Assembly: GCA_017554605.1 (NCBI GenBank)
Contig: JAFZIA010000086.1
Coordinates: 1 to 52,152 of the forward strand
Length of the DNA: 52,152 nt
Reading direction: 5' to 3'
Origin: Bacteroidaceae bacterium
GTDB taxonomy: Bacteria > Bacteroidota > Bacteroidia > Bacteroidales > Bacteroidaceae
Of this stretch, positions 247-45,025 are shown piece after piece. The notes below the pieces were generated by a model. It made no database searches and was not told the origin of the DNA. It saw nothing but the letters and a program-made list of their open reading frames with translations. Made by a program: the position numbers and the translations under genes. Position 1 is the first letter of the stretch; each line of letters begins with the position of its first letter.

Positions 247-3200
247 TTACTTGACAAATGTCTTATTGCCGTTTACAATGTAAATACCGCGTGCGGGTTT
301 CTCTACCTTGCGGCCGGTAAGGTCGAAGATAGCCTCGTCCACAACCACCTCGCTCTCAACCTCGCTGATACCAGTTGTACCGCTGAAGTCGAATGTGTAA
401 CCCACGCTGTTTGCAGGTCCGGTAGTCTCTGTTGTGGGCAGATAAGCCTTGTGGCTGCCGTTGGTAAAGTGGCCGTTAGCCTCGAACTCGCTTGTCTTGT
501 AAAGACCAACCTTGCCGCTGGAAATTCCAAGGATATATGCGTCGTTCGCTACAATGCTCTTGGCAAGTGTACCCTCGAAGAGGTTGTCTTCTATTGCTGT
601 TGCATCGTCAACTATTTCAAAGCAGAAAGGTCTTTTCTCTGTTATGTCTGCTGCATACAGAATAACACCTGTCTTTGCGGGAATTACACCGCCCTCAATT
701 GCAGTCAATGTAACAACGCTGTTCTCGTTGTCAACGCCGTCCTGTGCAATGTAGTATGCTGCAACGCCCTCGGGGATTTTTACTGCAACGGCTGCATAGA
801 ACGATGCGTACTTTGCTGCGCTTATATCAACGATGAGCATATTGGCCTCTACTGCTGTCCACGAGGTGTTTGACATTGTAACTTCGCCATTCTCGCTTCC
901 GATGTATGCTCCGTTGGCTACACCAATCATCACGGTGTTCTCGCCCTCGCCCTTCTTGAAGTGAACTGTGTTACCCTTGTGTCCTGCAGCCTCAAGACCT
1001 GCATTCTTGTTCAGGTACAAGCCCTGTGAGTATGAAAGCAGGCTGTTGTTCTCATCGAGAAGGAAGAGGGTAGATGGGCTGTAGACGAAGACGGTAGATG
1101 AGCTGTTGACGTCGCTTAGCGACAGGCCGTCGCTGCTTGCTCTCAATATCTTTCCTTCTGCATCTACGAAACCGTAGTACTTGTTGTTCTCAATCTCCTT
1201 CACGCTGTTGTCCACTCCGTCGAATACGTATACTGTTGAGCCGGGGAGGGTAATCTCAAGCGGTGTGTCGATGTCAATCTCTGTACCCTCTGCAAGGCCG
1301 CTCAAGTCGGCCTGGTCGTCAAATGCCTTAGAGAGTGTAACAGTTGTATTGATGTATGCAGGAATGTCGAGAGCCTCGCGCAGAGTGATTTTTATTGTCT
1401 GTGCGTCGTTTGCACCGTTGCGCAGTGTAAGTACAGCCTTCTGGCCGTTCCAAGCTGCCCAACCGTAAATCTCGGCCTTTGCACCTGTCCAGGGGTTGCC
1501 GCCTACCCAGTGAATGTCGGGAAGGACATCGGCATTCTCCTTCTGCCAAGCCATACATTTTGCAATCTCGCCCCAGAGAGCACCCTTCTCGCCGGCGGGG
1601 TTCTCGAGCTCGTTGGTCAATTTGTAGTCGTTGTAGAGCTCAACCATACCCGAACCGCAGGCAAATGCGCAACGCAACTCACGTACAACTGCGTGCCAGT
1701 CGCGGCTTGTGCTCTTGGGCTCGCTGAAGTCTGTGAAGATAAATCCGTGGGTCATCAGTGTGTTGATGGGGCAGAGGGGTGAGTTCTGTACATAGTTCTG
1801 ATAAACGAGACGGTCGCGGTAGGTAATCCAGTTCTCGCGGTCGTTGCGGTTGTTGCCAATCTCACCGTAGTCCTTCTCCTGACGCCAGATAGCATCGGTG
1901 AACTGGAACCAGAAGGGGCTTGCCCAAGTACCGACGGTGGTATTGAGGAAGGTGTCCTCCTTAATACCGCGTATGATGCGCTCTGCCGAGATGATAGCCT
2001 CGGCATTCTCGTCGCCGCTCTCGTTGTTGTCGGGTCCTACTGCCGAGAACTGTCCCGATATTCCGTCGAACTTGAAGAAACGGAAGTCGTAGCCATAGTT
2101 GTGGAGCAGGTTGGTTGTTGCTCTGACAAATACCTCATAATACAAGGGGTTAGACAACTGCATACCTCCGGTCTTTGTGCTTGTCCAGTAGTTGCGGCGA
2201 TAGCCTCCGCTGGTTCCGTAACCACCCACAGGTCCTAACCAGGCACCCTGGCCGGCACCCATCTGGCGACCTATCTTATCCATATTGGTGAATCCCTCGG
2301 GGAAACCATCGTGGAACTCCCACTCTCCGTACTTGTCCCAACCGTCGTCCCAGACGAATGCGTAAGGTGCTACTCCGTATTTGTCGAAGAGCTGCTCCTT
2401 CCACGCTTCAAGGATAGGCAGACAGTCGGCTTCGTCCATATTGTTTATATGCTCCTCACCGGGCTTTGCGTTGTTACGGTCGATGTTAATCTCGTACCAA
2501 CTGATGTATGCGGGAACAGCACGCCAGGGTACTGCACGCTCGCGCTCGCTGTAGGCAAGGAATGAACGGCGTGCCTGTCCGGGGGCAATTACACCCACTA
2601 CTGCGCTCACGTTCCACTTTTCATTGGTCTTCAGTGTGGTCTTTCTCTTCCAAAGACCCTGCATAGGAGTAGTAGCAGGAGAAATAAGGTGGAGGGTATA
2701 GTCTACCGTCAGTTTGAGAGAGATGTTTCCGGTAGAGTTGATGCTCTCTGCATTGTTTGCAAAATAACGGATAGTGTATGTTCCGGGAGCAAATACATTG
2801 AGCGTGTATTTGTTGTTCGAGTCGGAGTCGCCTGTCTCGCCCACGTGGTAGTCGTCTACCGATACGTTGCCTGTAGCATCAACAAGGTCTACGCCGGCTA
2901 CTGTGAGTTTGTTGCTTCCGCCTGTGTAGTCGAATATTACGGTCAGTGTTCCCTTTGCTGCAATTGTGATAGTCTGCTCAATTACGCGTGCGTTCTCATC
3001 GCTGCAACCAACCTCGTTTACGCGGTTGGGAACCAGCTCTGCTGCAATTGTCTTCCACGAGGTTGCTGTCCACTGCTGGCTCAGAGTCTCCTCCTCGTCT
3101 ATCGTACCCAGGCTGGGAAGTGTTTCTGTTGTCTCGGGTGCGCTGTAGGTGTGAATGATGTCACCGTTGGTTATACTGCCGTCGCTGTTTCTCTTGTCTA

Positions 3201-5508
3201 CAATGTAACGTACCTTGTATATACCGTCTGCGGGTATTTTTACGTTGTATACAGCAATGGGGCTTGTACCGGTAAAGTCGTTCTTGAAGTGGCTCGATAC
3301 AATATTGCCCTTAATGTCGAACAGTTGTACGCCCAATGTGTAGAGTCCGTGGCTACCGCCTGTGTAGTCGAACTTAATTTCGAGGTTACCGCCCTGCAAC
3401 AGGAATGTCTTGTCCATATACATTGCTGTTCCGTTTTTGGTTACACCTGTGGGGAGCTCGCCTGTCCAATTGCTGAATCCTGCCCAGTTCTGTGTCCAGT
3501 GCAATGTGGCATTGTTATTCTCGGCGTTGATTGCATCTATTGCAGTGAGGCTTGCAACAATCTGTCCTGCACCGTCGATACCGTTGTTCAGACGGTCTAT
3601 GATGTAGCGTACCTTGTAAGTACCTTCAGCCTGAACATATACCTTATATATATTGTTCCGGTCTGTGCCGCCTGTAAATCCAACGTGGTAGTCGTGTGAC
3701 AGTACATTGCCAGCAAGGTCGATGACCTCTACACCAAGAATGTTGAGTCCGTGGCTACCGCTTTGCCAGTCGAAATTGACGCTAAGCTCACCCGCTGCAA
3801 TAGAGTAGTACTTCTCCATAATCACAGCCTTAGGACCTGTTACGGTAACGCCCTCGGGCAATGTGCCTGTGAAGTCCTTGAACTCGGGCAACTGCCTCGA
3901 CCAAGTGCTTGTCTGGCTCTGCTCGGTTGTAATAGCATCTGCTGTACCGTATGCGTATGTGATGTTACCGCGCGATTGGATAGCCTCGGTCTTCTTTTCT
4001 GCAAAGTAACGTACCTTGTATGTTCCGGCAGGTGCGTAGATGGTGAATTTGTTGTTCGACTGTGCGTTGCCCGAGTATCCTGTGTGGTAGTCGTACGAAA
4101 TGACATTGCCTCTTGCGTCTACAAGGTCGGCACCGGCAAGGTTCAATCTTGTGTTTCCGCCACCGTCGGCACCCTGGTATGCGAATGTTATTTCAACCTT
4201 ACCCGATTGCTTGATGTCTACAACCAGTTCTTTGGTGCGTATCTGCTCCTTGGTGAAATTGAGTGAGAGGATACCCTGGGGTACGTCGCTTGTCTCCACC
4301 CAGTCTGCTGCTCTCCAGCTATCGGTCAGTCCCTCGGCATTCAATGTGGCTGTTGCAACAAGAATGGGCTCTACCTCGGGGGTGTAGTAGGGAGTCTCGG
4401 ACGATGCAAGATCGTACACGAGTGTGGGCTTTGACACCTTCTTTGAGTAGGCAATTGTTCCCTCGCTGCTCAATCCCTCGCCGTTGCCCTTTGACGATAC
4501 GAAGTAACGTACCATATATGCACCTACCGAGGGTATATTGATAGTGTAGGTGTTGTTGCTGTCACTTGTTCCTGTTGAACCGTAGTGATAGTCGTGCGCA
4601 ATTACCTCGCCGCTCATCGACAGGAGGTCTACTCCCAATATCTGCAGTTTGTTGTTACCTTTTGTGTAGTCGAAGGTTATTGTGTATGCGCCCGTCTCAC
4701 GGAATACAAGGTATCCGCGCGAAGCGTGTACTGTACCAGATGCGTAGTTGTTGCTGTTCTTGATGTCGGCAGGTATATCCTTATTCTCGTCGAGAATCCA
4801 GCCCCAAGACGATGCACCGTCCCAAGCCTTGTACACAAAGCTCTCCAGGTCGGTCGACTCGCCTGCTGTGTTTATACCTGTGGGTGTCTCGAGTCCTGCA
4901 AAAATCTTGTCGTTTGCAATAACCGCACCGCGTGTGTTGCCTACTACTGTGGGTGCCTTCTCGCCGTCAACATTGTCTACAGTATATATCATAGGGATAA
5001 TACTGTACATTTCAATGTCAGTGGTTGTCGTAATGTCAACCTCGGTACGCAGGTAGTGGCTGCCGTCGCGCAGCACTGCACGCCACTCTATGCATAGGCC
5101 GCTGTCGTGTGTGAACTGGGCTACCAACTGCTTGCCGTTGAATCTTCTCGATGCCTTTACTGCATCGGGGTTGCCTGTGAGTGTCTCGGTTTTTACCTCG
5201 CCAACAAGGGTGAACTCCGATGCAGGAATTACTGTTCCGTTGGCCAACTGAACGGTAAATAACTCCGTACCTGCCTGAAGGCCAAGCTCGCTACAACCGC
5301 CGAACATAAGTGTGCCGTTCTCCTTTACAAAGTTGGCAGCGAACAAACTGTTCGACAAAGTGTACACATTCTCTGTGTTGCTTACTGCTGCAACACCTGG
5401 CTGCTGCTCTTGTGGAAATATCACACTCTGCGCCATAGTGCAAAGGGGAGTACCCGACAACAACAGTGAAAAAGCAAGTGTTGCTACTGTCCTTAATTTG
5501 ATTTTCAT
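247..5508 (-). CDS. Giant secreted GH27/GH36-like glycosidase with five internal repeat modules
   Basis: This 1753-residue protein has a signal peptide (about residues 1-26, ending CTMA). An N-terminal beta-sandwich (to ~220) follows, then five tandem ~120-residue modules (~229-935), a catalytic barrel (~950-1340), a beta domain, an extra C-terminal region (~1440-1715), and a tail LTGRKVEKPARGIYIVNG typical of secreted Bacteroidales proteins. The barrel carries DDGWD (1054-1058), KFDGISGQ with candidate nucleophile D1148, and WRQEKDYG with candidate acid/base D1213. These are placed as in clan GH-D alpha-galactosidases, so an alpha-galactosidase-like activity is inferred, not shown. Four of the five modules carry DYHxGxxG; in the fourth this is replaced by SHFKNDFTG. 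The upstream gene is a paralogue (5603-10243) with a single module. I see no strong promoter in the 94-base gap, so the two may be cotranscribed. Confidence 0.8.
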   Translation of the reverse strand: MKIKLRTVATLAFSLLLSGTPLCTMAQSVIFPQEQQPGVAAVSNTENVYTLSNSLFAANFVKENGTLMFGGCSELGLQAGTELFTVQLANGTVIPASEFTLVGEVKTETLTGNPDAVKASRRFNGKQLVAQFTHDSGLCIEWRAVLRDGSHYLRTEVDITTTTDIEMYSIIPMIYTVDNVDGEKAPTVVGNTRGAVIANDKIFAGLETPTGINTAGESTDLESFVYKAWDGASSWGWILDENKDIPADIKNSNNYASGTVHASRGYLVFRETGAYTITFDYTKGNNKLQILGVDLLSMSGEVIAHDYHYGSTGTSDSNNTYTINIPSVGAYMVRYFVSSKGNGEGLSSEGTIAYSKKVSKPTLVYDLASSETPYYTPEVEPILVATATLNAEGLTDSWRAADWVETSDVPQGILSLNFTKEQIRTKELVVDIKQSGKVEITFAYQGADGGGNTRLNLAGADLVDARGNVISYDYHTGYSGNAQSNNKFTIYAPAGTYKVRYFAEKKTEAIQSRGNITYAYGTADAITTEQSQTSTWSRQLPEFKDFTGTLPEGVTVTGPKAVIMEKYYSIAAGELSVNFDWQSGSHGLNILGVEVIDLAGNVLSHDYHVGFTGGTDRNNIYKVYVQAEGTYKVRYIIDRLNNGIDGAGQIVASLTAIDAINAENNNATLHWTQNWAGFSNWTGELPTGVTKNGTAMYMDKTFLLQGGNLEIKFDYTGGSHGLYTLGVQLFDIKGNIVSSHFKNDFTGTSPIAVYNVKIPADGIYKVRYIVDKRNSDGSITNGDIIHTYSAPETTETLPSLGTIDEEETLSQQWTATSWKTIAAELVPNRVNEVGCSDENARVIEQTITIAAKGTLTVIFDYTGGSNKLTVAGVDLVDATGNVSVDDYHVGETGDSDSNNKYTLNVFAPGTYTIRYFANNAESINSTGNISLKLTVDYTLHLISPATTPMQGLWKRKTTLKTNEKWNVSAVVGVIAPGQARRSFLAYSERERAVPWRAVPAYISWYEINIDRNNAKPGEEHINNMDEADCLPILEAWKEQLFDKYGVAPYAFVWDDGWDKYGEWEFHDGFPEGFTNMDKIGRQMGAGQGAWLGPVGGYGTSGGYRRNYWTSTKTGGMQLSNPLYYEVFVRATTNLLHNYGYDFRFFKFDGISGQFSAVGPDNNESGDENAEAIISAERIIRGIKEDTFLNTTVGTWASPFWFQFTDAIWRQEKDYGEIGNNRNDRENWITYRDRLVYQNYVQNSPLCPINTLMTHGFIFTDFSEPKSTSRDWHAVVRELRCAFACGSGMVELYNDYKLTNELENPAGEKGALWGEIAKCMAWQKENADVLPDIHWVGGNPWTGAKAEIYGWAAWNGQKAVLTLRNGANDAQTIKITLREALDIPAYINTTVTLSKAFDDQADLSGLAEGTEIDIDTPLEITLPGSTVYVFDGVDNSVKEIENNKYYGFVDAEGKILRASSDGLSLSDVNSSSTVFVYSPSTLFLLDENNSLLSYSQGLYLNKNAGLEAAGHKGNTVHFKKGEGENTVMIGVANGAYIGSENGEVTMSNTSWTAVEANMLIVDISAAKYASFYAAVAVKIPEGVAAYYIAQDGVDNENSVVTLTAIEGGVIPAKTGVILYAADITEKRPFCFEIVDDATAIEDNLFEGTLAKSIVANDAYILGISSGKVGLYKTSEFEANGHFTNGSHKAYLPTTETTGPANSVGYTFDFSGTTGISEVESEVVVDEAIFDLTGRKVEKPARGIYIVNGNKTFVK
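2704..4824 (-). repeat. Five tandem ~120-residue modules inside the glycosidase
   Basis: Approximate module positions in the protein are 229-357, 397-520, 535-655, 668-790 and 811-935. Each has a Trp-containing lead-in, then a core such as FDYTGGSHGL, a segment like GVDLVDATGNV, the DYHxGxxG signature followed by NN, and an end like GTYKVRYF. The copies differ clearly at both protein and DNA level, so the duplication is not recent. The module is inserted between the N-terminal beta-sandwich and the catalytic barrel. I do not recognise it as a named family; a beta-sandwich carbohydrate-binding role is a guess. Confidence 0.75.
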
Positions 5509-5602: not shown

Positions 5603-8600
5603 TTACTTGATGTAAACTTTCTTGCCGTTCACAATATAGATACCCTTATCGGTAATTCTTTCAATCTTGCGACCTGTGAGGTCGTAGATTGTTGTCTCGT
5701 TACTTGCATTTACGTTTACAATACCGTCGCTCACTGCTACCTCAAGGATTACGTCGATAATCTGACCACCGTTAGCCTTGAAGTCGCCGAACTTGCCGTC
5801 GGCATCGCCCATAGGATCGATGTTGCACCAGTCCTGCTTTACGCGCATACGGTATGTGCCGGCATCTTCGGGAACGGTGAATGCGGGGATAGCGGGCTTG
5901 TTGCGGTTGTTGCCTGTAACTACTGTACCTGCGCTGTTCCAGCCGCTCTCGTCGCTGCTGCTGTTGTTGTTGTAGAAGCTGTATGCTACAAGGTCGCCTG
6001 TAGGAGCAAAGTCGCTTCCTTCCTCGATACCAGCAGTAAAGCCGTCTGCTGCATAGTCGATGTAAACATAGAAGTGTACCCAAGAGCCCGATGCGTCAAC
6101 GCTCATTGTAACCTCCTCGCCGGGAGCAGCCTTGAGCACTGCAACGGCAGTAGCGTCGGTGTAGTCGAGGCTCTGCTCGTCCGAGGTAAGTGTGTACGAC
6201 GATGCACCGTATGTACCGCTTGTGAGCTCAAAGCTTCTCACTGTACGGTCGTTACGTGTCTTTGAACCGTTGTTGTAGGGAGTGTAGTCTACGGGAACTT
6301 CGCCTACCTCGAATGTGAACTCACCCGAGAATGAATCGCCGTTGCTTGCACGTGTGATGAGTCCCTCGGGAATAACAAGTGTATATACACCCTCCTCAAC
6401 AATTGTGTTGGCAAGTGTAATGGTAAGCACCTTGTCGTTTGCCACGTAGTTGCTTATGCCGCTTGCTACACTGTTATCCTTCTTCAGCTTCATAGCTGTC
6501 ATAGAGTAGGGGTCGAACTCGCCTGCCACTGCGCTGTTGAATGTGAGGATAATCTCGCTCAACGACTCAACGATGCTTGCGGGCTCTGTGCTCACTACCT
6601 CAAGAGGGTCGGGGGTTATAACCTTAAAGTTATGTTCGCCTTTGTATGCTGCACCGTCAGACTCGCGTGTGATGAGACCCTCGGGAATAACGAGTGTGTA
6701 CTCGCCGGGGGTATTCACCTTCTGCGAAAGGGTAACCGTGAGTGTAGCACCGTTTGAGGTGTAGTTTGATATGCCACATACAACGCTGTTGCCTTGCTTG
6801 AATTTCATTGCTGTCATTGAGTAGGGGTCGAACTCACCAACAATGGCGCTGTTGAAAGTGATGGTGAGTGTCTCGAGCGCCTCTACACCCTTATTGGGGC
6901 TTACACTCACTACCTCGAAAGGGACTTGTGAGGGGTCGGCGTTGATACCGTCGAACGCAAATACCGAGCTTGCGGGGAGTGTCACTGTCAACTGCTGGTC
7001 AATGTCAATTGCAACACCCTCTGTCAGGCCTGCAAGAGCGTCCTGTACCTTGAACGACTTGTTGAGGATAATGGCGCCCTTGATGTTCGCGGGAATCTCA
7101 AGAGCCTGGCGCAATGTGAATGTGTAGCTCTTCTCTGTGTTGTTTCCGTTACGGATAGCAAGTGTAGCCTTTGCACCGTTCCACGATGCCCAGCCGTAAA
7201 CCTCGTGTGTGCTTCCTGTCCAGGGGTTGCCGCCTACCCAGTGTGCGTCGGGCAATACGTCGGCATTCTTCTTCTGCCAAGCGATGCACTCAGCAAGGTC
7301 TTCCCAAAGTTTACCATTGTTTATGCTGTTCAATAGAGAATAGTCGGCATATAGCTCTACCATACCCGAGCCGCATACGAAAGCGCAACGAAGTTCACGA
7401 AGAACAGCGTTGTAGTCCATTGTCTTCGATACAGCACCAAATTTTGTAAGAATAAATCCGTGAGTCATCAAAGTGTTGATGGGACAGATGGGCGAGTTGC
7501 TTACATAGTTCTGGAAAACGAGGCGGTCGCGGTAGGTAATCCACTTCTCGCGGTCGATAGAGTTGTTGCCGGCTTCGCCGTAGTCACCCTCCTGACGCCA
7601 AGTAGCATCTGATATTTGATACCAGAATGGAGAAGCCCAAGTTCCTACAGTTGTGTTGAAGAAGATATCCTCGCGCATATGCTCACGAACATACTGCTCA
7701 AGACGGATGATACCCTCGGCATTCTCGTTTCCGGTGTCACCTGCGTCGGGGCCTGTAGCCGAGAACTGTGCCGATATACCGTCGAACTTGAAGAAGAGAT
7801 AGTTGTCGGTCTCTGCGTTAAAGCCAGGTACACCGTCTTGTTGGCACACAAGATTGTTTGCAGCAGCAAGGAATGCCTCATAGTATGCGGGGTTGGAGAG
7901 TTGCATACCACCTTTGCCGTTCCAGTATGCACGACGGTAGTTGCCGCTTTGTCCATAACCTCCTACCGGTCCTAACCAAGCACCAATGCCTGCGCCCATC
8001 TCCCTGGCTGCTGCTGCCATATCACGCATCTCGTTGGGGAAGCCTTTATGGAATGTCCAGGGACCATAGTTGTCCCAACCGTCATCGATCACAAAGGCAA
8101 CAATACCCTCGCCATACTTGTCAAAATAGTTCTTCTTCCACTGGTCCATTACGTTGAGCACCTGATTCGCGGTGAAGTTTGTATGCTCCTGACCGGGAGC
8201 CGCGTTATTGCGGTCGATGTTCAACTCGTACCAGCTGTTATAATGTGGGAATACTCTCCAGGGCACTGCACGCTCACGCTCGCTGTAAGCAAGGAACGAA
8301 CGGCGCTTCTGTGTATCGCGGATATTTGTCTCGGCCTGCTTGCCGTCCTGTGCAATAAGGCCTACAACAGCACTAACCTTCCAGGTGTCGCCTGCTGCAA
8401 GAGTGGTGTTGCGGCTCCAACGGCCCTGGATACCTACGATTGCGGTGTTTACTACAACACCCTCCTTAGCTTCGTAGATGTTCACTGTCACGTTGCTTGT
8501 CGCGTCAATCGACTCGCTCAGGTCCTCGACAAAGATACGGAGTGTGAATGTATCGTCGTAGGGAGCGGTGAATGTGAATGTGTTGTCTGAGTGCTGGCCG

Positions 8601-10243
8601 CCTGTATAGCCGCTGTGGTAGTCGTTTGCTGCCACGCCGCCTGTTGTATCGGTGATGTCGGCACCGCCAAGGTTGAGACGGTGGCTGCCACCTGTGTATT
8701 TCACCTCAATCTGAACTTTTTGGTTCTTTTTGAGTGTGATGTTCTTCATCTCGTATGCAAGTACGTTGGGGAAGCTTGCGCCTGTAGCCTCGGTTACACG
8801 ACCGGGAACACTGCCGTCGGCAACTTGCTTCCAAGAACTTGCTGTGAGTGACTCTTTCTTTGTGTCGATGAGTTCCCAGGGGTCAGCCTCGCCCGATGCC
8901 TCGCCTACTGTGTTGTATGCTGTGGGAGTCTCAAGACCTGCGAAAATCTTGTTGCTCACCAATGTAGCACCGCGTGTGTTGCCCACTACCTTGGGTGTAG
9001 AGCCGGCAGCTTCGGTATCTACGTTGTAAATCATAGGAATTACGTTGTACATATCTACGTTGTCGATACCTGTGAGCTCCATCTCGGTGCGGATATAGTG
9101 GCTGCCGTCGCGCAACACTGCACGCCATACAATCTCTACCTTAGTACCTTTGTATGTGTACTCGTAGTTTGCGACAATCTGTACACCTGCAAAGTGCTCA
9201 GCGCCACCGACAGCGTGGGGGTTGGCCGAGAGAACCTCGGTGTCAACGCTCTTGAGTGTCATTGCCGATGCGGGTACATTGTCGCCCGAGCCGAATGCTA
9301 CAGTGAAAGGCTCTGTACCGGCAACAAGATTCATTGCCTTTGAACCTGCGAAGTAAAGTGCGCTGCCCACCTTTATCCAGCTTGCTGCAAGCACGTTGTT
9401 CTTTATTGTGTAAACGTTGTTGTCTGCGTCTATTGATGCTGCGCCTACGTTGTCCTGCTGCTTGGGATATACCCACGCATTCTCGTAGGGCTGGCTGTCG
9501 GGCTGTGCGGGGAGCATTGCCACATTCACGGTGATTGTGTTGTTCACGTCGTCAACCGATACTACGGCAAACATTCCGTCGGGAACGGTTACTGCAATGG
9601 TGCTCTTGTCGATAGAACCCTCTACAGTGATTGTTGAGCCGTCGGTGTATACAATGCCGCCGATTGTGAGTGTGACACCCTCGGGTACGTGGATTGTGTA
9701 AGTGCGCTCGGCAATCACGTGCTCTGCGAATGTGTAGCGGCTGCCGCCGTCCTTTGAACCGTTGTCGGTCCAGAGGCCGAGTGAAATGCCTGAACAGGCA
9801 CTGACGCCACCAAAATAGTTCAGATAGATAGCCTGTGCGCTGCCTGCTGTCGTGTAGGGCGAAATCTGATAGTTGTCATCGGCATAGTTGTCTACCTTGA
9901 AGTAGGTTCCGTCAACCTTGCTGTCGCTGAGTTTTACAAAGCCGGCACCAGTAGGGTAGCTCGACTTCTTGTCGTAGGTAAGCCACTTCTTGGCGTTGTG
10001 GCTGTAGATGTAATAAGCGCCGTTAACGCCGTCTACCGCATAGAATGCGAAGAGGCCATTCTCGGCATCACCCTCAACCGGAGTAGTAGTGGGGCTTACG
10101 TATGCACCATTACCGCTCACCATTGTGTAGACGTGCTCCGGCTTGCCTTTGTCGGGCGTTGTCGACGAAGCAGTCACCTTGTCGGCGTATGCCTGTGTCG
10201 AGAGACACAATGCTGCCAACAGTAAGGAGAAAATTTTCTTCAT
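5603..10243 (-). CDS. Giant secreted GH27/GH36-like glycosidase, single-module paralogue
   Basis: This 1546-residue protein begins with a signal peptide (~1-20, ending AYA). An extra N-terminal region (~21-240) is absent from its neighbour. It then has the shared beta-sandwich (~255-450), one copy of the DYH module (~460-595, DYHSGYTG), and a catalytic barrel with DDGWD (720-724), KFDGIS (D821, likely nucleophile) and WRQEGDYG (D888, likely acid/base). Two Ig-like repeats (~1108-1208 and 1213-1313) and a GEVED-like domain (~1340-1505, with YIDYAADGF and RMRVKQDW) follow, then the tail LTGRKIERITDKGIYIVNG. The barrel motifs match clan GH-D alpha-galactosidases. Exact substrate and linkage cannot be read from the sequence. 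The long conserved stretch YSERERAVPWR is shared with the downstream paralogue. Confidence 0.8.
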   Translation of the reverse strand: MKKIFSLLLAALCLSTQAYADKVTASSTTPDKGKPEHVYTMVSGNGAYVSPTTTPVEGDAENGLFAFYAVDGVNGAYYIYSHNAKKWLTYDKKSSYPTGAGFVKLSDSKVDGTYFKVDNYADDNYQISPYTTAGSAQAIYLNYFGGVSACSGISLGLWTDNGSKDGGSRYTFAEHVIAERTYTIHVPEGVTLTIGGIVYTDGSTITVEGSIDKSTIAVTVPDGMFAVVSVDDVNNTITVNVAMLPAQPDSQPYENAWVYPKQQDNVGAASIDADNNVYTIKNNVLAASWIKVGSALYFAGSKAMNLVAGTEPFTVAFGSGDNVPASAMTLKSVDTEVLSANPHAVGGAEHFAGVQIVANYEYTYKGTKVEIVWRAVLRDGSHYIRTEMELTGIDNVDMYNVIPMIYNVDTEAAGSTPKVVGNTRGATLVSNKIFAGLETPTAYNTVGEASGEADPWELIDTKKESLTASSWKQVADGSVPGRVTEATGASFPNVLAYEMKNITLKKNQKVQIEVKYTGGSHRLNLGGADITDTTGGVAANDYHSGYTGGQHSDNTFTFTAPYDDTFTLRIFVEDLSESIDATSNVTVNIYEAKEGVVVNTAIVGIQGRWSRNTTLAAGDTWKVSAVVGLIAQDGKQAETNIRDTQKRRSFLAYSERERAVPWRVFPHYNSWYELNIDRNNAAPGQEHTNFTANQVLNVMDQWKKNYFDKYGEGIVAFVIDDGWDNYGPWTFHKGFPNEMRDMAAAAREMGAGIGAWLGPVGGYGQSGNYRRAYWNGKGGMQLSNPAYYEAFLAAANNLVCQQDGVPGFNAETDNYLFFKFDGISAQFSATGPDAGDTGNENAEGIIRLEQYVREHMREDIFFNTTVGTWASPFWYQISDATWRQEGDYGEAGNNSIDREKWITYRDRLVFQNYVSNSPICPINTLMTHGFILTKFGAVSKTMDYNAVLRELRCAFVCGSGMVELYADYSLLNSINNGKLWEDLAECIAWQKKNADVLPDAHWVGGNPWTGSTHEVYGWASWNGAKATLAIRNGNNTEKSYTFTLRQALEIPANIKGAIILNKSFKVQDALAGLTEGVAIDIDQQLTVTLPASSVFAFDGINADPSQVPFEVVSVSPNKGVEALETLTITFNSAIVGEFDPYSMTAMKFKQGNSVVCGISNYTSNGATLTVTLSQKVNTPGEYTLVIPEGLITRESDGAAYKGEHNFKVITPDPLEVVSTEPASIVESLSEIILTFNSAVAGEFDPYSMTAMKLKKDNSVASGISNYVANDKVLTITLANTIVEEGVYTLVIPEGLITRASNGDSFSGEFTFEVGEVPVDYTPYNNGSKTRNDRTVRSFELTSGTYGASSYTLTSDEQSLDYTDATAVAVLKAAPGEEVTMSVDASGSWVHFYVYIDYAADGFTAGIEEGSDFAPTGDLVAYSFYNNNSSSDESGWNSAGTVVTGNNRNKPAIPAFTVPEDAGTYRMRVKQDWCNIDPMGDADGKFGDFKANGGQIIDVILEVAVSDGIVNVNASNETTIYDLTGRKIERITDKGIYIVNGKKVYIK
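6305..6922 (-). repeat. Two near-identical Ig-like domain repeats
   Basis: Two adjacent ~100-residue segments share GEFDPYSMTAMK, TFNSA and YTLVIPEGLITR. They resemble bacterial Ig-like (Big_5/CopC-like) domains. The DNA is also closely similar, for example the shared 17-mer gagtaggggtcgaactc near 6506 and 6820, suggesting a fairly recent duplication or conversion. Confidence 0.7.
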
Positions 10244-26299: not shown

Positions 26300-27640
26300 T
26301 TACTTTTTCAGACTCTTGAGGTATTTCTTGCGGTTAACCTTGCTGTTGTAGCTGTATTTGCCGTTTGTTATCTCATCGATACTGAAGTTCTTGTACGCAA
26401 TTGTGTATCCGCCACCGTTTGTGCCGTATGTGTCCTCCTCGTAGACAAAAGCAATTGTTCCGTCCTGCTGTTGTATCATTGTGGAGTAGGCCGATGCCTT
26501 GTATGTAACCTGGAAACGTCCGTCCCAGTCGCGTGCCAAATTCTCGGGGGTGTCAAAGTCTTCTGCCGCAGCAAGTTCCTTGTAATATATACCCACATTG
26601 GTACGGCCTTTTCCAAAGGGCAGCGACTGTAACAGTATGTACATATCCTTTTTGTCGCTGTTGCGCTTCACCGGTAGCACAAGCACCTCGCCGTTGCACG
26701 AGTTGGAGAGTGCTGTCACTCCGTTGTTCGCCTCGCCCGAGAATGCGTGCTTGCCCCACGTGCCCTGTGCCAGTGCCGCGTTGCTGAACTCGAATATATT
26801 GTAGAGCCTGCCACCACCGCAGCGTGAACTCAGGAGCAATGAGCCGTCGGGAAGCTCCTCGGTCTTCGGCTCGTCGCCACCGGCAGGGACAGGAGCGGTG
26901 TTTGTGTCGCCAAGGATATTCCAGTTCTTTCCAAAGTCATCGGAGTAGACTACGAAATTGCAAAAATTGTTGTCCTTGTCCCTTGCCAGCATACAGGCAT
27001 AGAGGCGGTAGTAGTCGCCCACTTTCGTGTAGCGGCTCTGGTGTATCCTTCCCGAACCGATGAACATCGATTTTATAGGGCCTACAGCCGAATTGTCCAA
27101 CGGGGCATAGAACTGCTCTGTAATCACTTCGGGGGCACTCCAGGTGCGTCCGCCGTCCTCGCTGTAGAGTCGTGCCACCTGATTGGGGTACTCGCGCGAT
27201 GCACCGAAATATGTCTGGTAGCCACATACGCATATAAGAAGCACCCTGTTGCTCTCGCTGTCGGCAACTATGCAGGGGTCGCCGTATCCCGCGTTGAGCG
27301 ACAGGTTGGGGTTGTTGTCTATTTTCTTTCCGTCGCCCTCGACAATGGTAAACACCTCGCCCCACGATTTTCCGTTGTCTTCGCTTATGCGGCAGTGCAG
27401 GTCGATATGTCCGTAGCCAATGTCGGCGCGGCAAAAGCGGTAATCGGCAACGGCTACAAGCGAGCCGTCTATGGTCTTTGCTATTGCGGGAATGCGGTAG
27501 GGTATTGCCTCGGAGGTGTATGTCCTGAAGAGGTCGAACGGCTTCTTCGATACACCGTCCTTGTAAATGTCACTCGCCACAAGCATAATGGCTGCAATCA
27601 ACAACAGTGGAACTGCAAGTATTGTCTGTCTTATCTTCAT
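26300..27640 (-). CDS. GH33 exo-alpha-sialidase
   Basis: This 446-residue secreted or anchored enzyme removes terminal sialic acids. An N-terminal hydrophobic segment (~5-22) has no lipobox. The arginine triad fits R49 in YRIPA, R273 in SSRCGGG and R346 in GRTNVG. D73 in RADIGYG is the likely acid/base and Y385 in ASAYSTM the likely nucleophile. Three Asp-boxes are visible: SEDNGKSW (86), SEDGGRTW (160) and SDDFGKNW (233). It lacks the N-terminal carbohydrate-binding domain of longer Bacteroides sialidases. It lies 42 bases after the carbonic anhydrase gene. Other sialic acid catabolism genes (lyase, epimerase) are not in the window. Confidence 0.9.
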   Translation of the reverse strand: MKIRQTILAVPLLLIAAIMLVASDIYKDGVSKKPFDLFRTYTSEAIPYRIPAIAKTIDGSLVAVADYRFCRADIGYGHIDLHCRISEDNGKSWGEVFTIVEGDGKKIDNNPNLSLNAGYGDPCIVADSESNRVLLICVCGYQTYFGASREYPNQVARLYSEDGGRTWSAPEVITEQFYAPLDNSAVGPIKSMFIGSGRIHQSRYTKVGDYYRLYACMLARDKDNNFCNFVVYSDDFGKNWNILGDTNTAPVPAGGDEPKTEELPDGSLLLSSRCGGGRLYNIFEFSNAALAQGTWGKHAFSGEANNGVTALSNSCNGEVLVLPVKRNSDKKDMYILLQSLPFGKGRTNVGIYYKELAAAEDFDTPENLARDWDGRFQVTYKASAYSTMIQQQDGTIAFVYEEDTYGTNGGGYTIAYKNFSIDEITNGKYSYNSKVNRKKYLKSLKK

Positions 27641-35480: not shown

Positions 35481-37991
35481 TTATTTGCCCCTCTTTGTGC
35501 TTTTTACTTTAAGCTTGCCATTCTTTGTGGTAATCTTGTAGCTTTTGCCTTTTTTTGTTTTTATGGATACTACATTGTTGCCGTAGCGCACATCGCATAC
35601 TCCGCCTTTTTTCGATGTAACCACTGTCTCTGCCATCTTGCCGTCTTTCCAGGTGATGTCAACCTCGAATCCTCCTTTGGCGCAGAGGCCGTAGACAGTA
35701 CCCTCTTCCCAAGCGTCGGGTAGGGCAGGGAGCAGGTGTATAAAGCCCATATGACTCTGCATAAGCATCTCGGCAATGCCTGCTGTACCTCCAAAATTTC
35801 CGTCAATCTGGAAGGGGGCGTGTGTGTCCCACAAATTGTCGAGTGTACCGTTCTTCAATAGGTTGCCGAAGAGGGTGTATGCGTGGTTGCCGTCGTGCAG
35901 GCGCGCCCATTGGTTCAGCTTCCAGCCCATACTCCAGCCTGTAGCGCCGTCGCCACGATGCACAAGCACCACTTTCGATGCCTCGGCAAGCTCGGGGGTT
36001 GTGACGGGCGATATTGTGTGTCCCGGGTGCAGACCGAACAGGTGATTTACGTGGCGGTGCTGGTCCTTGGGGTCGTCAATGTCCTTGCTCCACTCCATTA
36101 GCTGACCGTAGCGTCCAATCTGGTAGGGTGCAAGGTATTTCAGCACGTTTGCCCACTCCTCGCGCAGCTCCTTGTCCTTGCCCATCACCTTGCTGGCCTC
36201 TATTGCATCGAGCAGAATCTCGCGCACTACGCCGTGGACGAATGTCGCTCCCTGGTCGATAGGGCCGTGCTCGGGCGAGGTCGAGGGTGCAGCAGTGTAT
36301 GTGCTGTCGTTCTTCTTCCACAGATAGTCCATTGCAAATATTGCACTGCTGCGTATGATGTCGTATCCCGTCTCCTCAAGGAACTTCTTGTCGCGGGTAT
36401 AGTCGTAGTAGTCCCACACGTGTGTGGCGAGCCACGGTCCGGCCATAGGATTGAAATTCCACGACATATCCTGGCTGCTGAGCGGTGCTGTAAAGCCGAA
36501 GATGTTGCCCGAGATGCTTGCGGTCCAGCCACGTGCACCGAAGTAGTTCTGTGCGGTGACAGCGCCGGGCTTTGTGAGTGTGCGTATAAAGTCTATGAGA
36601 GGGAGCACGCACTCGTCGAGGTTGGTTACGCACGCGGGCCAGTAGTTCATCTGCAGGTTGATGTTGTTGTGGTAGTCCACGCGCCAAGGGCCGTCGACAT
36701 TGTTGTGCCATATTCCCTGCAGGTTGGCGGGAAGGTTGCCGGGACGTGAACTGGAGATGAGCAGGTAACGTCCATACTGGAAATAGAGCTCCTCGAGTCC
36801 GTTGTCGGGCTTTCCCGTGCGGTACGACTTTATGCGCTTGGGAGTGGGCAGGTTGGCAACGCCTGGGAACTCGTATGTGGTGGGCGCATTGGGATTGAGG
36901 TCTATGCGCACACGGTTGAAGAGTGCCGCGTAGTCGGCGTAGTGCTCGGCAAAGAGCGCGTCGTAACCTTTGGCAAGTGCATTCTTGAGCCACTCGTTGG
37001 TTGTGGTGTAGGGGTTTACGCCAACGTATGTCGTGGGGTCGTCAAAATCGGGGTCGAAGTTAATCTTGTAGTCGGTGTCGGCTGTAACGTAGAAGCATAC
37101 CTCGTCGGCTCCCGTCACCTTTATGTCGCCGCGCTCAATCTCCACCTTTCCGCCCTTTGCAACGGCTTTCACGCGTACGGTGTAGTTCATTCCGTTGTTG
37201 TCGAGCTTGCCCTGGAACACAATGCCGTCCTTGCCGTCGTTGCGCATAGTGCCCTCGGATACAGGGTTGTGGGTGTACGACAGCTTTAGGTTCTGCTGTC
37301 CGGGCTTGTCGGCTGTGAATTTCATCACCATTACATTGGCGGGGTACGACACAAAGTATTTGCGCTCGTGCCTGATACCCTGATGCGCATACTCAACAAC
37401 GGCAAGAGCCGAGTCGAGCGATAGGATACGGCGGTAGTTGTCGAGTCCTGCGTGCGAGTGTCCCGTCTCAATGATGAACTCGCCCATTGTGGTGAAGTTG
37501 CCGAAGCGGAAGGGCTTCTCGTTGTAGTATTCGTAGGCAGCGGTGCTGTTGAAGTGCTCGCGTGTGAGACGTGCCGCCTCTGCATCGTTGCCCTCGGAGA
37601 AAGCCTTGCGTATGTCATCGAGCAGATGTGCCGATTTCTTGTTCACGTTCCAATAGTAGTGCGCTCCCGCCTCGGTGTTGGGGCCTCCGCGCCACAGGGT
37701 CTTCTCGTTGAAGGTGATGCGCTCTGCCTCTACCGAACCGAGAATGTTTCCGCCAATGCTGCCGTTACCGATGGGCAACGATTGCGACTCCCACTCCTGG
37801 TCGGGGTTCACGCTTGTGTCGCCGGCCCACTCGGGCTTTTGCATCATATCGCTGCCGTTGTACCATATCTGTCGGCCCTTGAGCGAAGTTGGGGTGTCGA
37901 ACCACACCGATAGGCCGCGTGTGTAGTCGCTCTGCGCTTGCGCTGCAAGAGCCATAAGCAGCGCGGCTGCCATAATTTTAAATCTTTTCAT
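35481..37991 (-). CDS. GH95 alpha-L-fucosidase
   Basis: This 836-residue secreted enzyme with a signal peptide (~1-20, ending AQAQ) cleaves terminal alpha-L-fucose (usually alpha-1,2) by inversion. The N-terminal GH95 hallmark is SLPIGNGSIGG (71-81) with NEKTLWRGGP (95-104). In the (alpha/alpha)6 barrel, the Asn pair lies in HNNINLQMN (N443, N445), the acid is E574 in STSPEHG and D730 is in QIDGNFGG; all match the known catalytic set. Some family members act on alpha-L-galactose. The AmpG-like permease gene lies 21 bases upstream in the same operon. Confidence 0.92.
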   Translation of the reverse strand: MKRFKIMAAALLMALAAQAQSDYTRGLSVWFDTPTSLKGRQIWYNGSDMMQKPEWAGDTSVNPDQEWESQSLPIGNGSIGGNILGSVEAERITFNEKTLWRGGPNTEAGAHYYWNVNKKSAHLLDDIRKAFSEGNDAEAARLTREHFNSTAAYEYYNEKPFRFGNFTTMGEFIIETGHSHAGLDNYRRILSLDSALAVVEYAHQGIRHERKYFVSYPANVMVMKFTADKPGQQNLKLSYTHNPVSEGTMRNDGKDGIVFQGKLDNNGMNYTVRVKAVAKGGKVEIERGDIKVTGADEVCFYVTADTDYKINFDPDFDDPTTYVGVNPYTTTNEWLKNALAKGYDALFAEHYADYAALFNRVRIDLNPNAPTTYEFPGVANLPTPKRIKSYRTGKPDNGLEELYFQYGRYLLISSSRPGNLPANLQGIWHNNVDGPWRVDYHNNINLQMNYWPACVTNLDECVLPLIDFIRTLTKPGAVTAQNYFGARGWTASISGNIFGFTAPLSSQDMSWNFNPMAGPWLATHVWDYYDYTRDKKFLEETGYDIIRSSAIFAMDYLWKKNDSTYTAAPSTSPEHGPIDQGATFVHGVVREILLDAIEASKVMGKDKELREEWANVLKYLAPYQIGRYGQLMEWSKDIDDPKDQHRHVNHLFGLHPGHTISPVTTPELAEASKVVLVHRGDGATGWSMGWKLNQWARLHDGNHAYTLFGNLLKNGTLDNLWDTHAPFQIDGNFGGTAGIAEMLMQSHMGFIHLLPALPDAWEEGTVYGLCAKGGFEVDITWKDGKMAETVVTSKKGGVCDVRYGNNVVSIKTKKGKSYKITTKNGKLKVKSTKRGK

Positions 37992-39646: not shown

Positions 39647-42600
39647 ATGAAACTAAGAACAGTTGGAATTTCACTGTTGGCGGCAGCCCTCTTCGGTTGT
39701 CCGCTGTGTGGCATTGCCCCTGCGGCGTATGCCAATGCCAATGTGATGCAACAGGACGGTGGAGTAGTTAAAGGTACCGTATTGGATACCAATGGCGAGC
39801 CCGTTTTTGGAGCAATTGTCTTTGTCGTGGGTACAACCAACTCCTGTCAGGTTGACTTCGACGGTAACTACACACTCGACTATGTGAAGAAGGGTGCTAC
39901 CGTACGCGCACAGATGATGGGCTACAACACTGTAGACCTCGTTTGGAATGGTGGTGTGCTTAACTTTACCCTTCAGGAGGAGACATCGCAGCTCGACGAG
40001 CTCGTTGTGACAGCGATGGGTATTATGCGTAAGGAAAAGTCACTTACCTACGCGACACAACAGATCAAGGCTGCCGACCTTCTCCAGGTGCAGGACGTGA
40101 ACCTCGTAAACTCGCTCGAGGGTAAAATCTCGGGTATTACAATTACTCCCAGTGCCGGTGGTGCCGGTGGTGCTTCAAAAATCACCCTCCGCGGTAACAA
40201 GTCAATTATGGGTGAGAATGCTCCCCTCATCGTTGTCGACGGAGTGCCTATGACCAACAGTATCCGCGGCCAGGTGAGCGATGCTGCCAACCTTACATAT
40301 TCGGGCGCAACCGAGGGTAGCGACCCTATGTCAATGATTAACCCCGACGACATTGAGTCGATGAACATCCTTAAGGGTGCCAACGCTGCTGCCCTCTATG
40401 GTTCGCGTGCTGCCAACGGTGTCGTGATGATTACCACAAAGAAGGGTAAGGAGGGTAAGATGGAGGTTACTTTCAACTCGAATACCACATTCGATACACC
40501 TCTTCTCACTCCCGAACTCCAGAATGCATACGGTAGCTACCGTGCCGCTGCGAACACCATCGACTACAATAGCTGGGGCGACCGTTTGGCTGGAAATGGC
40601 AAGCATATCTACGAATCGGCATACAACAAGCAGTATTTCCCCCAGACACTCAACGGCGAGGCAAATATGCTGCAGTCCTATATGCGCAACTATGCCAAGG
40701 ACGACATTGCCGAGTTCTACGGTGTAGGTGTAAATACAAACAACTCAGTTTCGGTTTCGGGCGGTACAGAGAAGATTCAGACGTACGTGTCATATTCGAA
40801 CTCACACTCTGTCGGTATGATTGAGTCGAACACATACAACCGTAACACATTCTCTTTCCGTCAGAACTACAAGCTCTTCGACCGCATAAATATTGGTGTG
40901 AACGTAAGCTACAACCAGGCTAAGACAAAGAACCGCGTGGGTGGCGGTACAGTAGGTAACCCCATCTATCACCTCTATACAACTCCCCGTGACGTGGATA
41001 TGGACTACTACAAGAGCAACTACCGTGCCGACGGCACCTGGTGGTCATCGGGTAACGCCGAGGGTGAGGGTACACAAAAGTACTATGTGGCTCAGGGCAA
41101 TACATACGTTCCCGTTTACGGTCACGAGCTTCTCAACGGTCCTATGCAGCAGTATGCTTTCCAGGCTCCTATGTACAACAACCCCTACTGGCTCAGCAAT
41201 ATGGCCAATGGCGAGACAAACGAGGAGCGTTTCTCGGCAGCATTCAATGCTACTGTAAACATTATGGAGGGTCTTAACTTCCAGGCACGCGTTTCAATCG
41301 ACCACTCGAAATATCAGAACGAGGGCGGTACATACGCTTCTACTTGGGGTCCCGTCGATATGTATCGTTACGGTACATACTACCTCAACAACAGCCGTAC
41401 AAACGAGATTTACACCGACTATATGCTCTCTTACAACAAGCAGTTGAACGACGATTGGTCAATGTCGGCAACAGCGGGTTACGTAGGTCACACAATCAAG
41501 GGCAACGGCAGCAATACATACATTGGCAACGCTACTGTATATATGCAGGAGGACGGCGTAATGTCGGGTATCTCTACAGCTATCAATATGTTCGAGCCTT
41601 CTTACGGTGGCCCTGGTGTTACATCAAAGTCTATCAGCAGCAACTGGGACCAGGCTGCCCTTGTAACAGGTCAGGTAGGTTGGAAGGACAAGATCTTCGT
41701 CGATGCATCTTATCGTCACGACTGGTACCGTCCCTTCAGACAGTATTCTTACCTTGGTGTAGATGAGAGCTACGGTTACTACGGTGTTGGTGCAAACGCA
41801 ATCCTCAGCGACCTTATCGAGCTTCCCAAATGGTTCACATACGCTAAATACCGTATGAGCTACTCCGAGGTGGGTAACTCTATCCCCAACTTTGTTGACG
41901 GTGCAGTAGGTCAGAACCTTGTTCAGGGTAGTGTGAATGTCGACAACCGTAACTCGTTCATTCCCGAACCCGAGACAACAAAATCTTTCGAGACTGGTCT
42001 CGAGATGCAGTTCCTCCGCGATTGCCTGAACGTGGATATTACCTATTATAATACAGCAATGCACAACTCATATCTTGAAATCTCGGGTACAAACGGTAAG
42101 ATTCAGCCTGTGAACAGCGGTATTATCCGTAACCACGGTATCGAGCTTTCAGTAGGTTACGACTGGGCCATCACAAACAACCTGCGTTGGAATACCAATG
42201 TGAACTTCTCGTACAACATCAACAAGATTGAGCAGACTGCAAAGGACAAGTATGGCTACGACAAGGATATGGCCACATCATTTGCAAACGGTAAGATCCA
42301 GCTCCTCTACAGAAAGGGCGGTTCATACGGTGACATCTACATTACCGACTTTACACGCTACTCAACCGACGTTTACAAGTACACAACATACGAGTGGGTG
42401 AAGAACAACGGTAGATACGAGCCCATCGATGTATATTCTACCTCTCCCGTAACAGTAGAGATTACCAACCAGAATGGCGAGACCGAGGTTGTAACTGCTG
42501 CTTTGGCCAACAAGAAGGGTGATGTGTACATTACAAACGGCAAGCCTTCACACGGCGGTTATGCTGCTGTGACCGAGGGCGGTAGCTTGCGTGTACGCGA

Positions 42601-43165
42601 TGCCAACAAAAAGTTCCAGAAGTATGCAGGTAACCTCAACTCCGATTACCAGCTCTCTTGGTCGAACACCATCAGCTATAAGAACTTCTCGCTTTACTTC
42701 CTCATCAACGGACGTATCGGTGGTAAGGTTGTATCGTTGACTGAGGGTTATCTCGACCGTTTCGGTGCATCGAGCCGCTCGGGTGCAGCACGTCTCTATG
42801 CCGAGAAGAAAGGTATCACAACCGAGGACGGACGTCTTGGAATGTACTTGAATGATGGTCGCGACTGTGTAGCTGTTGAGGATTACTACACATACGTTGG
42901 TACAAGCGATGCGGGTAGTTATATCTACGATGCTACAAACTTCCGTCTGCGTGAGCTTTCACTGGGTTACACATTCCGTAACCTCTTCGGCGAGTACAAG
43001 CACTTGAACCTCTCGTTCGTTTGCCGTAACTTGTTCTTCATCTACAAGGATTCTCCCGTTGACCCCGACGTTTCGCTCTCTACAGCCAACGGTCTTGGCG
43101 GTATCGACGTATTCAACTATCCTTCGGCCCGCACATTCGGTTTCAACCTCAAGCTCAACCTCTAA
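39647..43165 (+). CDS. SusC/RagA-family TonB-dependent transporter
   Basis: This 1172-residue outer-membrane glycan importer has a signal peptide (~1-30, ending in the AYANA region). A carboxypeptidase-regulatory-like domain (VVKGTVLDTNGEPVFGAIV, ~40-115), the TonB-box region DELVVTAMG, a plug with SLEGKISGITI and ENAPLIVVDGVPMTN, and a ~22-strand barrel ending in Phe-rich strands follow. The length is at the high end of normal. SusC works with the SusD lipoprotein encoded 48 bases downstream. No glycosidase is in this operon; the divergent MFS-GH95 operon is the closest partner. Confidence 0.95.
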   Translation: MKLRTVGISLLAAALFGCPLCGIAPAAYANANVMQQDGGVVKGTVLDTNGEPVFGAIVFVVGTTNSCQVDFDGNYTLDYVKKGATVRAQMMGYNTVDLVWNGGVLNFTLQEETSQLDELVVTAMGIMRKEKSLTYATQQIKAADLLQVQDVNLVNSLEGKISGITITPSAGGAGGASKITLRGNKSIMGENAPLIVVDGVPMTNSIRGQVSDAANLTYSGATEGSDPMSMINPDDIESMNILKGANAAALYGSRAANGVVMITTKKGKEGKMEVTFNSNTTFDTPLLTPELQNAYGSYRAAANTIDYNSWGDRLAGNGKHIYESAYNKQYFPQTLNGEANMLQSYMRNYAKDDIAEFYGVGVNTNNSVSVSGGTEKIQTYVSYSNSHSVGMIESNTYNRNTFSFRQNYKLFDRINIGVNVSYNQAKTKNRVGGGTVGNPIYHLYTTPRDVDMDYYKSNYRADGTWWSSGNAEGEGTQKYYVAQGNTYVPVYGHELLNGPMQQYAFQAPMYNNPYWLSNMANGETNEERFSAAFNATVNIMEGLNFQARVSIDHSKYQNEGGTYASTWGPVDMYRYGTYYLNNSRTNEIYTDYMLSYNKQLNDDWSMSATAGYVGHTIKGNGSNTYIGNATVYMQEDGVMSGISTAINMFEPSYGGPGVTSKSISSNWDQAALVTGQVGWKDKIFVDASYRHDWYRPFRQYSYLGVDESYGYYGVGANAILSDLIELPKWFTYAKYRMSYSEVGNSIPNFVDGAVGQNLVQGSVNVDNRNSFIPEPETTKSFETGLEMQFLRDCLNVDITYYNTAMHNSYLEISGTNGKIQPVNSGIIRNHGIELSVGYDWAITNNLRWNTNVNFSYNINKIEQTAKDKYGYDKDMATSFANGKIQLLYRKGGSYGDIYITDFTRYSTDVYKYTTYEWVKNNGRYEPIDVYSTSPVTVEITNQNGETEVVTAALANKKGDVYITNGKPSHGGYAAVTEGGSLRVRDANKKFQKYAGNLNSDYQLSWSNTISYKNFSLYFLINGRIGGKVVSLTEGYLDRFGASSRSGAARLYAEKKGITTEDGRLGMYLNDGRDCVAVEDYYTYVGTSDAGSYIYDATNFRLRELSLGYTFRNLFGEYKHLNLSFVCRNLFFIYKDSPVDPDVSLSTANGLGGIDVFNYPSARTFGFNLKLNL

Positions 43166-43213
43166 TATGCAGGCTGCGATAATAGTATAAACAAAAAATA
43201 GAATATATAAGTT

Positions 43214-45025
43214 ATGAAGAAATATTTGATTTTTGCCGGCTCGTTGCTGTTTGCATCTTTTGCATTGCAGTCGTGTCTCGAGTATGACGATCCCGGTTCA
43301 GAGCTTAACAAAGGTACACAACAGCTCGAAAAAGAGAAATATGTAGGAAATGTCGATACAATTCCCTATCTCGACTACGCTCCCACTCCTGAGGGTGTCA
43401 AGATGGCTATCGACTCACTGCGCAAGCTTGGTTATTTGGGTCAGTCCATTACTGGTCAGTATCATATGCGAGGCGGTAAGGACGGTAACCCTCCCGGTTC
43501 ACACGCTTACCAGCGTCAGTACTCTCTCGGTCCCGACCTCTATGCACAGTACTTTACAGTTCCTCACAAGGACTTTATGTACGGTACATTGACATCTACC
43601 TATAATGTCTCTGCCGAGTTCAACAATGGTCCTCTTGGTGCTTACACTATGGCAAAGAATGCTTTTATGCCCTTGTTGCACCATCCCCTTGTAGACTCTA
43701 TCCCCGAGGTTAAGGCTATCAATATGCTCTACTATTGCTTGATGGCTCAGGAGCAGGCCGACCTTTCGGGTCCCTTCACATATCTCGAGGACAAACAGAA
43801 CTCCGAGGAGCCCTACGAGTATAACGATGTAAGGACCATCTACTACGGTATTGTTGAGAATATCGACACTATTGTAAACTGTCTGCTTCACTACGAGACA
43901 AGAGAGGACTGGTATAAGAAACAGATTGAGAACCTGTTGACCTCGTACACCTACACAAGCCGTGCACAGCTTATCGGAGACAACAGCATTTTTATACCTT
44001 CGTTCATTAAGCTTGCCAACTCTTTGAAGTTGCGTATGGCAATGCACATTGTAAAGGTAGAGCCCGAGACTGCTAAAATATGGGCTGAGGCGGCTGTTGA
44101 CCCTGCAAGAGGTGGTGTGATAGAGGATGCAAACGAGCAGCAAGGTCTTTATCCTATGCTTAGCGGATATACTCATCCCCTTGCCGAGATTGCAAACTCT
44201 TGGGGCGACCTTCGTCTTTGCGCTTCGTTCGAGAGCCTTCTTATGAGTCTCGACCACCCCTATTCAAAATATCTCTTCAATCCCAACAGTGGTGATATTC
44301 CCTGTAATGATGGTTCGGTGCTTGCTGCTGGTGAGCGCGTAGTTGGTATCCGTTCGGGTCTGTTGGTAGGTGACGGTCAGACATACGCACAGAACAAGCT
44401 TCAAGGTTATTCTACATTCGACGATTATGTGTTGCTTGGTAGCCTTTGCCCCAACTACTTTATTAAGTGGGCCGAGGTAGACTTCCTGCGTGCCGAGGGT
44501 GCTCTCCGTGGCTGGAATATGGGTGGCGACGCTCAGTTCTTTTACGAGAGAGGTATCCGCAACGGTTACATCGAGGATCCTTGGGCTGCTTATAACTACG
44601 AGACTTACATCGATGCTTATATGGAGATTGAGGAGGCTATTCCCTATGTACAGGTTGATCCTATGATAGGTGAAAGCGATCCTTGGCCCAGCGTAACAAC
44701 AATCGGTGTCAAGTGGAACGAGGGTGACGACAACGAAATTAAGCTCGAGAAGATTATCACTCAGAAGTATATCGCGCTCTTCCCCCTCTCAACCGAGGCT
44801 TGGACCGAGATGCGCCGTACTGGTTATCCCAAGGTGTTCCCCGTGCTCAATACCGACGACGGTGACGGTTCAATCAACAAGGGTGATATGATTCGTCGTA
44901 TTCCTTGGGTTCCCACAGATCCCGTTGCAATGGGTATGGTAGAGGCTTCGGGTATCTCGGCACTCGGCGGTCCCGACGAGCAGGCTACACGTCTGTGGTG
45001 GGACGTTGATGCACCCAACTTCTAA
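43214..45025 (+). CDS. SusD/RagB-family surface glycan-binding lipoprotein
   Basis: This 603-residue lipoprotein has lipobox LQSC (Cys21) followed by LEYDDPG, the acidic signature of surface-exported Bacteroidetes lipoproteins. The alpha-helical TPR-like body ends with WTEMRRTGYPKVFPV and RRIPW, typical of SusD-like proteins. It would sit on the SusC barrel as a lid and bind the glycan. Substrate is not readable from sequence. A terminator follows 55 bases after the stop codon. Confidence 0.93.
   Translation: MKKYLIFAGSLLFASFALQSCLEYDDPGSELNKGTQQLEKEKYVGNVDTIPYLDYAPTPEGVKMAIDSLRKLGYLGQSITGQYHMRGGKDGNPPGSHAYQRQYSLGPDLYAQYFTVPHKDFMYGTLTSTYNVSAEFNNGPLGAYTMAKNAFMPLLHHPLVDSIPEVKAINMLYYCLMAQEQADLSGPFTYLEDKQNSEEPYEYNDVRTIYYGIVENIDTIVNCLLHYETREDWYKKQIENLLTSYTYTSRAQLIGDNSIFIPSFIKLANSLKLRMAMHIVKVEPETAKIWAEAAVDPARGGVIEDANEQQGLYPMLSGYTHPLAEIANSWGDLRLCASFESLLMSLDHPYSKYLFNPNSGDIPCNDGSVLAAGERVVGIRSGLLVGDGQTYAQNKLQGYSTFDDYVLLGSLCPNYFIKWAEVDFLRAEGALRGWNMGGDAQFFYERGIRNGYIEDPWAAYNYETYIDAYMEIEEAIPYVQVDPMIGESDPWPSVTTIGVKWNEGDDNEIKLEKIITQKYIALFPLSTEAWTEMRRTGYPKVFPVLNTDDGDGSINKGDMIRRIPWVPTDPVAMGMVEASGISALGGPDEQATRLWWDVDAPNF

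Follow-up and report, generated by a model that had tools for sequence, protein, structure and literature searches.

A mobile, tandem-expanded beta-sandwich module inserted within the N-terminal sandwich of a predicted GH27/36-like exo-glycosidase from Bacteroidaceae

The closest described counterpart of the protein module reported here is the C-terminal domain of a beta-N-acetylhexosaminidase from Akkermansia muciniphila (8PXT/8PXU/8PXV), a series with a PDB entry title that refers to blood-antigen removal by the Akkermansia enzyme. Bacteroidales enzymes of glycoside hydrolase (GH) families GH20 and GH89 (NAGLU) carry C-terminal domains that are homologous to the module by profile, have the motif [D/E]xHxGxxG in common with it and, in three such proteins, are not covered by any Pfam match listed at an expectation value (E) <= 0.01. 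We take the Akkermansia enzyme to be a GH20 member and to be the one described in Jensen 2024, whose abstract reportedly points to a new putative carbohydrate-binding module, which may be this domain. In the 8PXT series and in those GH20 and GH89 proteins that we inspected, the domain is terminal and present in a single copy, whereas in a 52,152-nucleotide stretch of a Bacteroidaceae bacterium genome (contig JAFZIA010000086.1, assembly GCA_017554605.1; hereafter the window) another enzyme, protein A, has five copies within its N-terminal sandwich, and one copy is found in its paralogous neighbor, protein B. An architecture analogous by description is that of CBM112 in PMC13357471, where a gut Bacteroidota glycosidase likewise has a binding module inserted in one of its enzyme domains, but the host is a GH26 mannanase and a single carbohydrate-binding module (CBM) lies inside the catalytic domain. 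What is new at this locus is the nested multi-copy array, while the part itself, a terminal domain of exo-glycosidases with a putative role in carbohydrate binding, is already known, and a CBM number for it may already exist; our literature searches listed nothing naming this module, and the passages searched in PMC12703440, PMC12834350 and PMC11790493 are silent on it. Taken as a whole, we think it on balance probable that a mobile 8PXT-type module, spliced into a hairpin of a GH27/36-like sandwich, serves to hold host glycans.

The copies, their homology and fold, the insertion site, the distribution and the repeated expansion were all established computationally. The original prediction had described five tandem copies in protein A and one in protein B, with DYHxGxxG in four of the copies of A and DYH lost from the fourth, and this description was borne out, with coordinates that were right within a few residues. 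All 15 pairs among the six copies aligned with z-scores of 11.8-34.4 (300 shuffles per pair), and a profile of the six matched these six places only (E <= 0.01) in the 2.48 Mb genome from which the window comes. The motif is present in copies 1, 2, 3 and 5 of A and in the copy of B, and copy 4 has SHFKNDFTG there. The copies are old and diverged, with 26-51% identity in local alignments and only short DNA-level repeats (63-86% identical) among them. Eight different genomes each contribute one protein with 4 or 5 detected copies to a single supported clade, so the array is not an assembly artifact. The features of the two proteins are as follows.

247..5508 (-), protein A: 1753-residue open reading frame (ORF) of a GH27/36-like enzyme with five modules, predicted from the ORF, the enzyme profile and the fold of the homologous core of B
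4435..4833 (-), A module 1: residues 226-358, DYHYGSTG; clusters with the first copies of other arrays
3931..4323 (-), A module 2: residues 396-526, DYHTGYSG; the copy used for fold prediction, with an unsupported place in the module tree
3544..3909 (-), A module 3: residues 534-655, DYHVGFTG
3142..3507 (-), A module 4: residues 668-789, HFK in place of DYH; loss of the H is common to its counterparts in the clade
2704..3078 (-), A module 5: residues 811-935, DYHVGETG; clusters with the last copies of the arrays of the clade
2578..2700 (-), boundaries approximate, predicted strands with which the sandwich of A resumes behind the array: GLWKRKTTL ... WNVSAVVGVI, from the alignment of B-type and module-less enzymes, the B model and the A-B alignment
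1219..2571 (-), approximate, predicted barrel and following beta domain of A, with DDGWD and FFKFDG; placed in part by the fold of the homologous region of B
250..342 (-), A C-terminal tail: IFDLTGRKV...GIYIVNG, resembling a type IX secretion signal in sequence
5603..10243 (-), protein B: 1546-residue ORF of a paralogous enzyme with one module, from the ORF and the enzyme profile
8468..8848 (-), B single module: residues 466-592, DYHSGYTG

As the original prediction had supposed, the module is a discrete folded unit expanded in tandem within a glycosidase-like protein, and an independent fold is predicted for it: module 2 was modeled with a predicted local distance difference test score (pLDDT) of 91.9 and a predicted template modeling score (pTM) of 0.86. 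The module is a beta-sandwich of about 120 residues, a type of domain with which GH20 and GH89 exo-hexosaminidases end, and it is a homolog of the solved Akkermansia hexosaminidase domain, with E of 2.8e-5 in the forward and 2.1e-5 in the reverse comparison and a common fold over most of the 8PXT/8PXU domain. The earlier description of it as unrecognized therefore stands only insofar as no Pfam or NCBIfam model scores above its cut-off on the window copies; profile searches relate it to the 8PXT-type domain and, for some related modules scanned alone, to Pfam PPC (PF04151), a collagenase collagen-binding-domain-like family, so that its placement in a described family is partial. The PPC cut-off of 25.9 bits was passed by 5 of 10 B-type related modules scanned alone, although the two whole proteins scanned from among these (L061 and L062) reached only 21.0 and 20.3 bits; 17 of 56 module copies matched PPC at E <= 1, and the window proteins had no PPC match at this level. 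The fold match to PPC and collagenase collagen-binding-domain-like structures was much weaker than that to 8PXU.

Protein B was aligned with 45 of 49 candidate relatives. Six relatives of the enzyme lack a module (L079, L088, L092, L098, L118 and L141; some are from metagenome-assembled genomes that bear the names Phocaeicola plebeius and Bacteroides sp.), and in these a short hairpin connects the strand FAGLETP[T/M]G to the strand G[L/T/W]WSR, leaving 11-15 residues between the two anchor motifs. In 29 rows with a single module this distance is 161-178 residues; 35 of the 46 alignment rows fitted the hairpin pattern. In the model of B residues 252-1092 built from this alignment (pLDDT 82.7, pTM 0.73), strands E182-186 and E191-195 precede the module, strands E351-364 and E369-378 come behind it, and the barrel follows. 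Because strands of the model flank the module on both sides, in agreement with the hairpin alignment, the array sits inside the N-terminal sandwich, between two strands of one hairpin, and the place first proposed for it, between the sandwich and the barrel, was not upheld.

The B model also recovers the fold of clan GH-D, a barrel with an N-terminal sandwich as in GH36, and the aspartates of DDGWD and FKFDG are invariant in the 46 rows; these are putative equivalents of the GH36 catalytic residues. Similarity to the GH36 and GH27 alpha-galactosidases of this clan is low (9-14% identity to alpha-galactosidase-type rows), and the catalytic region of A and B matched no Pfam family above its cut-off; Pfam Melibiase gave no match at E <= 1 for either protein and 17.3 bits against a cut-off of 27 for the relative L188. 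On the strength of the modeled fold, A and B probably belong to a GH27/36-like exo-glycosidase family, their activity being predicted. No Pfam or NCBIfam tail model scored above its cut-off on the C-terminal tails of A and B, which offer a tail motif only; a PorU-type type IX sortase is encoded in the genome (1096.6 bits, cut-off 420), with 0 of 14 control genomes above the cut-off. Judging from the tail resemblance and this sortase, A may be secreted by the type IX system.

The module is mobile and tandem-expandable in Bacteroidaceae. The six-copy profile found it in 28 of 61 genomes, all 28 among the 37 from the genus of the window and none among the 24 from other families of the order, and in a phylum sample it detected 1 of 395 genomes, the window's own. 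A profile of 56 of the 62 copies (set A2) reached 66 of 301 genomes and 9 of 30 genera in a family sample, or 61 genomes and 7 genera without the five genomes resting on weak matches only, and 3 of 295 genomes in an order sample, the window's own included. One module-bearing enzyme of this type in a genome from another family of the order (L188, G849:C37) has a module match no weaker than those within the genus (E 2.6e-42), reflecting either lateral transfer or a binning error. The 80 enzyme loci that were kept of 245 in a scan of named genomes come from Bacteroidaceae, Prevotella, Alloprevotella and others, and the 87 enzyme frames carry 0 (9 frames, three of them fragments), 1 (46), 2 (20), 3 (2), 4 (5) or 5 (5) upstream copies. 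One B-type enzyme (L061:5421-9749, minus strand) has a second module after its catalytic part, at residues 1127-1243, and so has two module places in one protein.

Expansion in this family has been repeated. A quick tree of 83 barrels, with 4 of the 87 frames left out as short or incomplete, required 15 copy-number changes; A belongs to one eight-protein clade with 4-5 detected copies (support 100), and a second five-copy pair (L084 and L124) is placed elsewhere. A near-identical tandem duplication of 396 bp (132 residues), a whole module plus linker, in the module protein L037 (about 3233-3630 and 396 bases on) shows recent expansion. The 0 to 5 range, the 15 changes and this duplication would fit middle modules that are a neutral by-product of tandem duplication, selected for nothing beyond linker length, but we regard this as the least probable of the explanations considered. 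In a quick module tree of 106 of the 136 copies (45 single copies, sampled one in three), which is indicative since it has few columns, copies that open an array form one group (support 93, 33 rows), those that close an array lie on the other side, joined by the majority of single copies and by some middle ones (support 89, 50 rows), and the middle copies of the A clade for the most part form a group (support 97, 18 rows). The H of DYH is retained in 128 of 136 copies, and the eight copies without it come one from every A-clade protein, in the window from module 4; all have [E/Q/H]FK instead and cluster in the module tree (support 97). Retention of [E/Q/H]FK in all members of the clade and the separation of first from last copies suggest constraint, and since the eight copies share this motif and group together, the change in module 4 looks like a conserved change in sequence and not decay.

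Of 21 further module proteins scanned, 13 have no Pfam family above cut-off, and only one, the M60-peptidase protein L038, has a catalytic Pfam domain. Besides L038, carriers of the module outside this enzyme include L037 (1065 residues, five copies), in which no Pfam family scores above cut-off, and L054 and L047, where F5/8 type C domains accompany it. At about residues 610-670, L054:1055-4036 (plus strand) contains a long, microsatellite-like Gly-Thr dipeptide run, which reflects genuine variation in length or else an artifact of assembly. The varied contexts of the module, single or tandem and N-terminal, internal or C-terminal, would not be needed by a barrel-specific buttress, which makes it rather unlikely, if worth serious consideration, that the module is a structural or oligomerization domain that packs on the barrel in GH20 and GH89 and acts as a ligand-free stabilizer or spacer in the array. 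Its C-terminal position in the GH20 and GH89 proteins inspected would suit such a role, as would the many glycines among its most conserved positions (G55, G63 and G84 in 136 of 136 copies), which are typical of turns.

Multivalent glycan binding, giving avidity on clustered host glycans, is in our view the most likely, putative function of the array, and for this reading we infer the binding specificity, enzyme activity and substrate. A discrete fold within enzymes of carbohydrate-active type, with homologs in GH27/36-like, GH20 and GH89 proteins, is consistent with it. The secreted enzyme would hold non-reducing ends of host glycans, such as mucin-type O-glycans and blood-group-like structures, through many weak contacts of its modules, and the barrel would then trim alpha-Gal or alpha-GalNAc ends on the clustered chains. 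For M60 mucinases, PMC13003899 reports that CBM32 is needed for large mucins and not for short glycopeptides. Several points weigh against glycan binding. According to PMC13357471, the internal CBM112 of a Bacteroides GH26 enzyme binds mannan and leaves in vitro kinetics unchanged, a precedent which cautions by analogy that catalysis may gain nothing from an internal module. A glycan context is demonstrated for only part of the 21 module proteins, and in two genomes of the genus (L050:1313-3088, plus strand, and L056:2136-3974, minus strand) a membrane protein that has a Gate (nucleoside recognition) domain precedes a module-like domain (weaker matches, at residues 413-522 and 436-529), which in turn has a short tail behind it; this is an odd setting for a glycan-binding module, and a role on extracellular glycans does not suggest itself there. 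The PPC, collagen-binding-domain and GOLD matches of the module would fit protein binding as well, and an adhesive domain of that type, through which the enzyme would be anchored to mucin protein, to matrix or to partners on the cell surface, is an improbable explanation of the module. A bolder form of the glycan-binding explanation, which we hold as a tentative possibility somewhat short of even, is that an unnamed host-glycan-binding family, so far anonymous at the C-terminus of GH20 and GH89 enzymes, has become mobile in gut Bacteroidaceae, that its arrays of two to five units make a multivalent mucin gripper of the GH27/36-like exo-glycosidase whose hairpin they occupy, and that copy 4 was re-tuned from DYH to [E/Q/H]FK for another ligand.

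A domain that is poorly covered by Pfam ties the solved Akkermansia blood-antigen-removal enzyme to enzymes of Bacteroidales, and its profile is now searchable. In PMC13357471 the rationale of internal CBMs is called poorly understood; related enzymes whose nested arrays range from 0 to 5 copies offer a ready-made gradation for studying the role of internal binding modules in an exo-acting glycosidase. Elsewhere on the same contig we noted a BNR-repeat (sialidase-like) protein at 26300-27640, a GH95 enzyme at 35481-37991 and a SusC/SusD-like pair at 39647-45025, neighbors fitting the use of host glycans.
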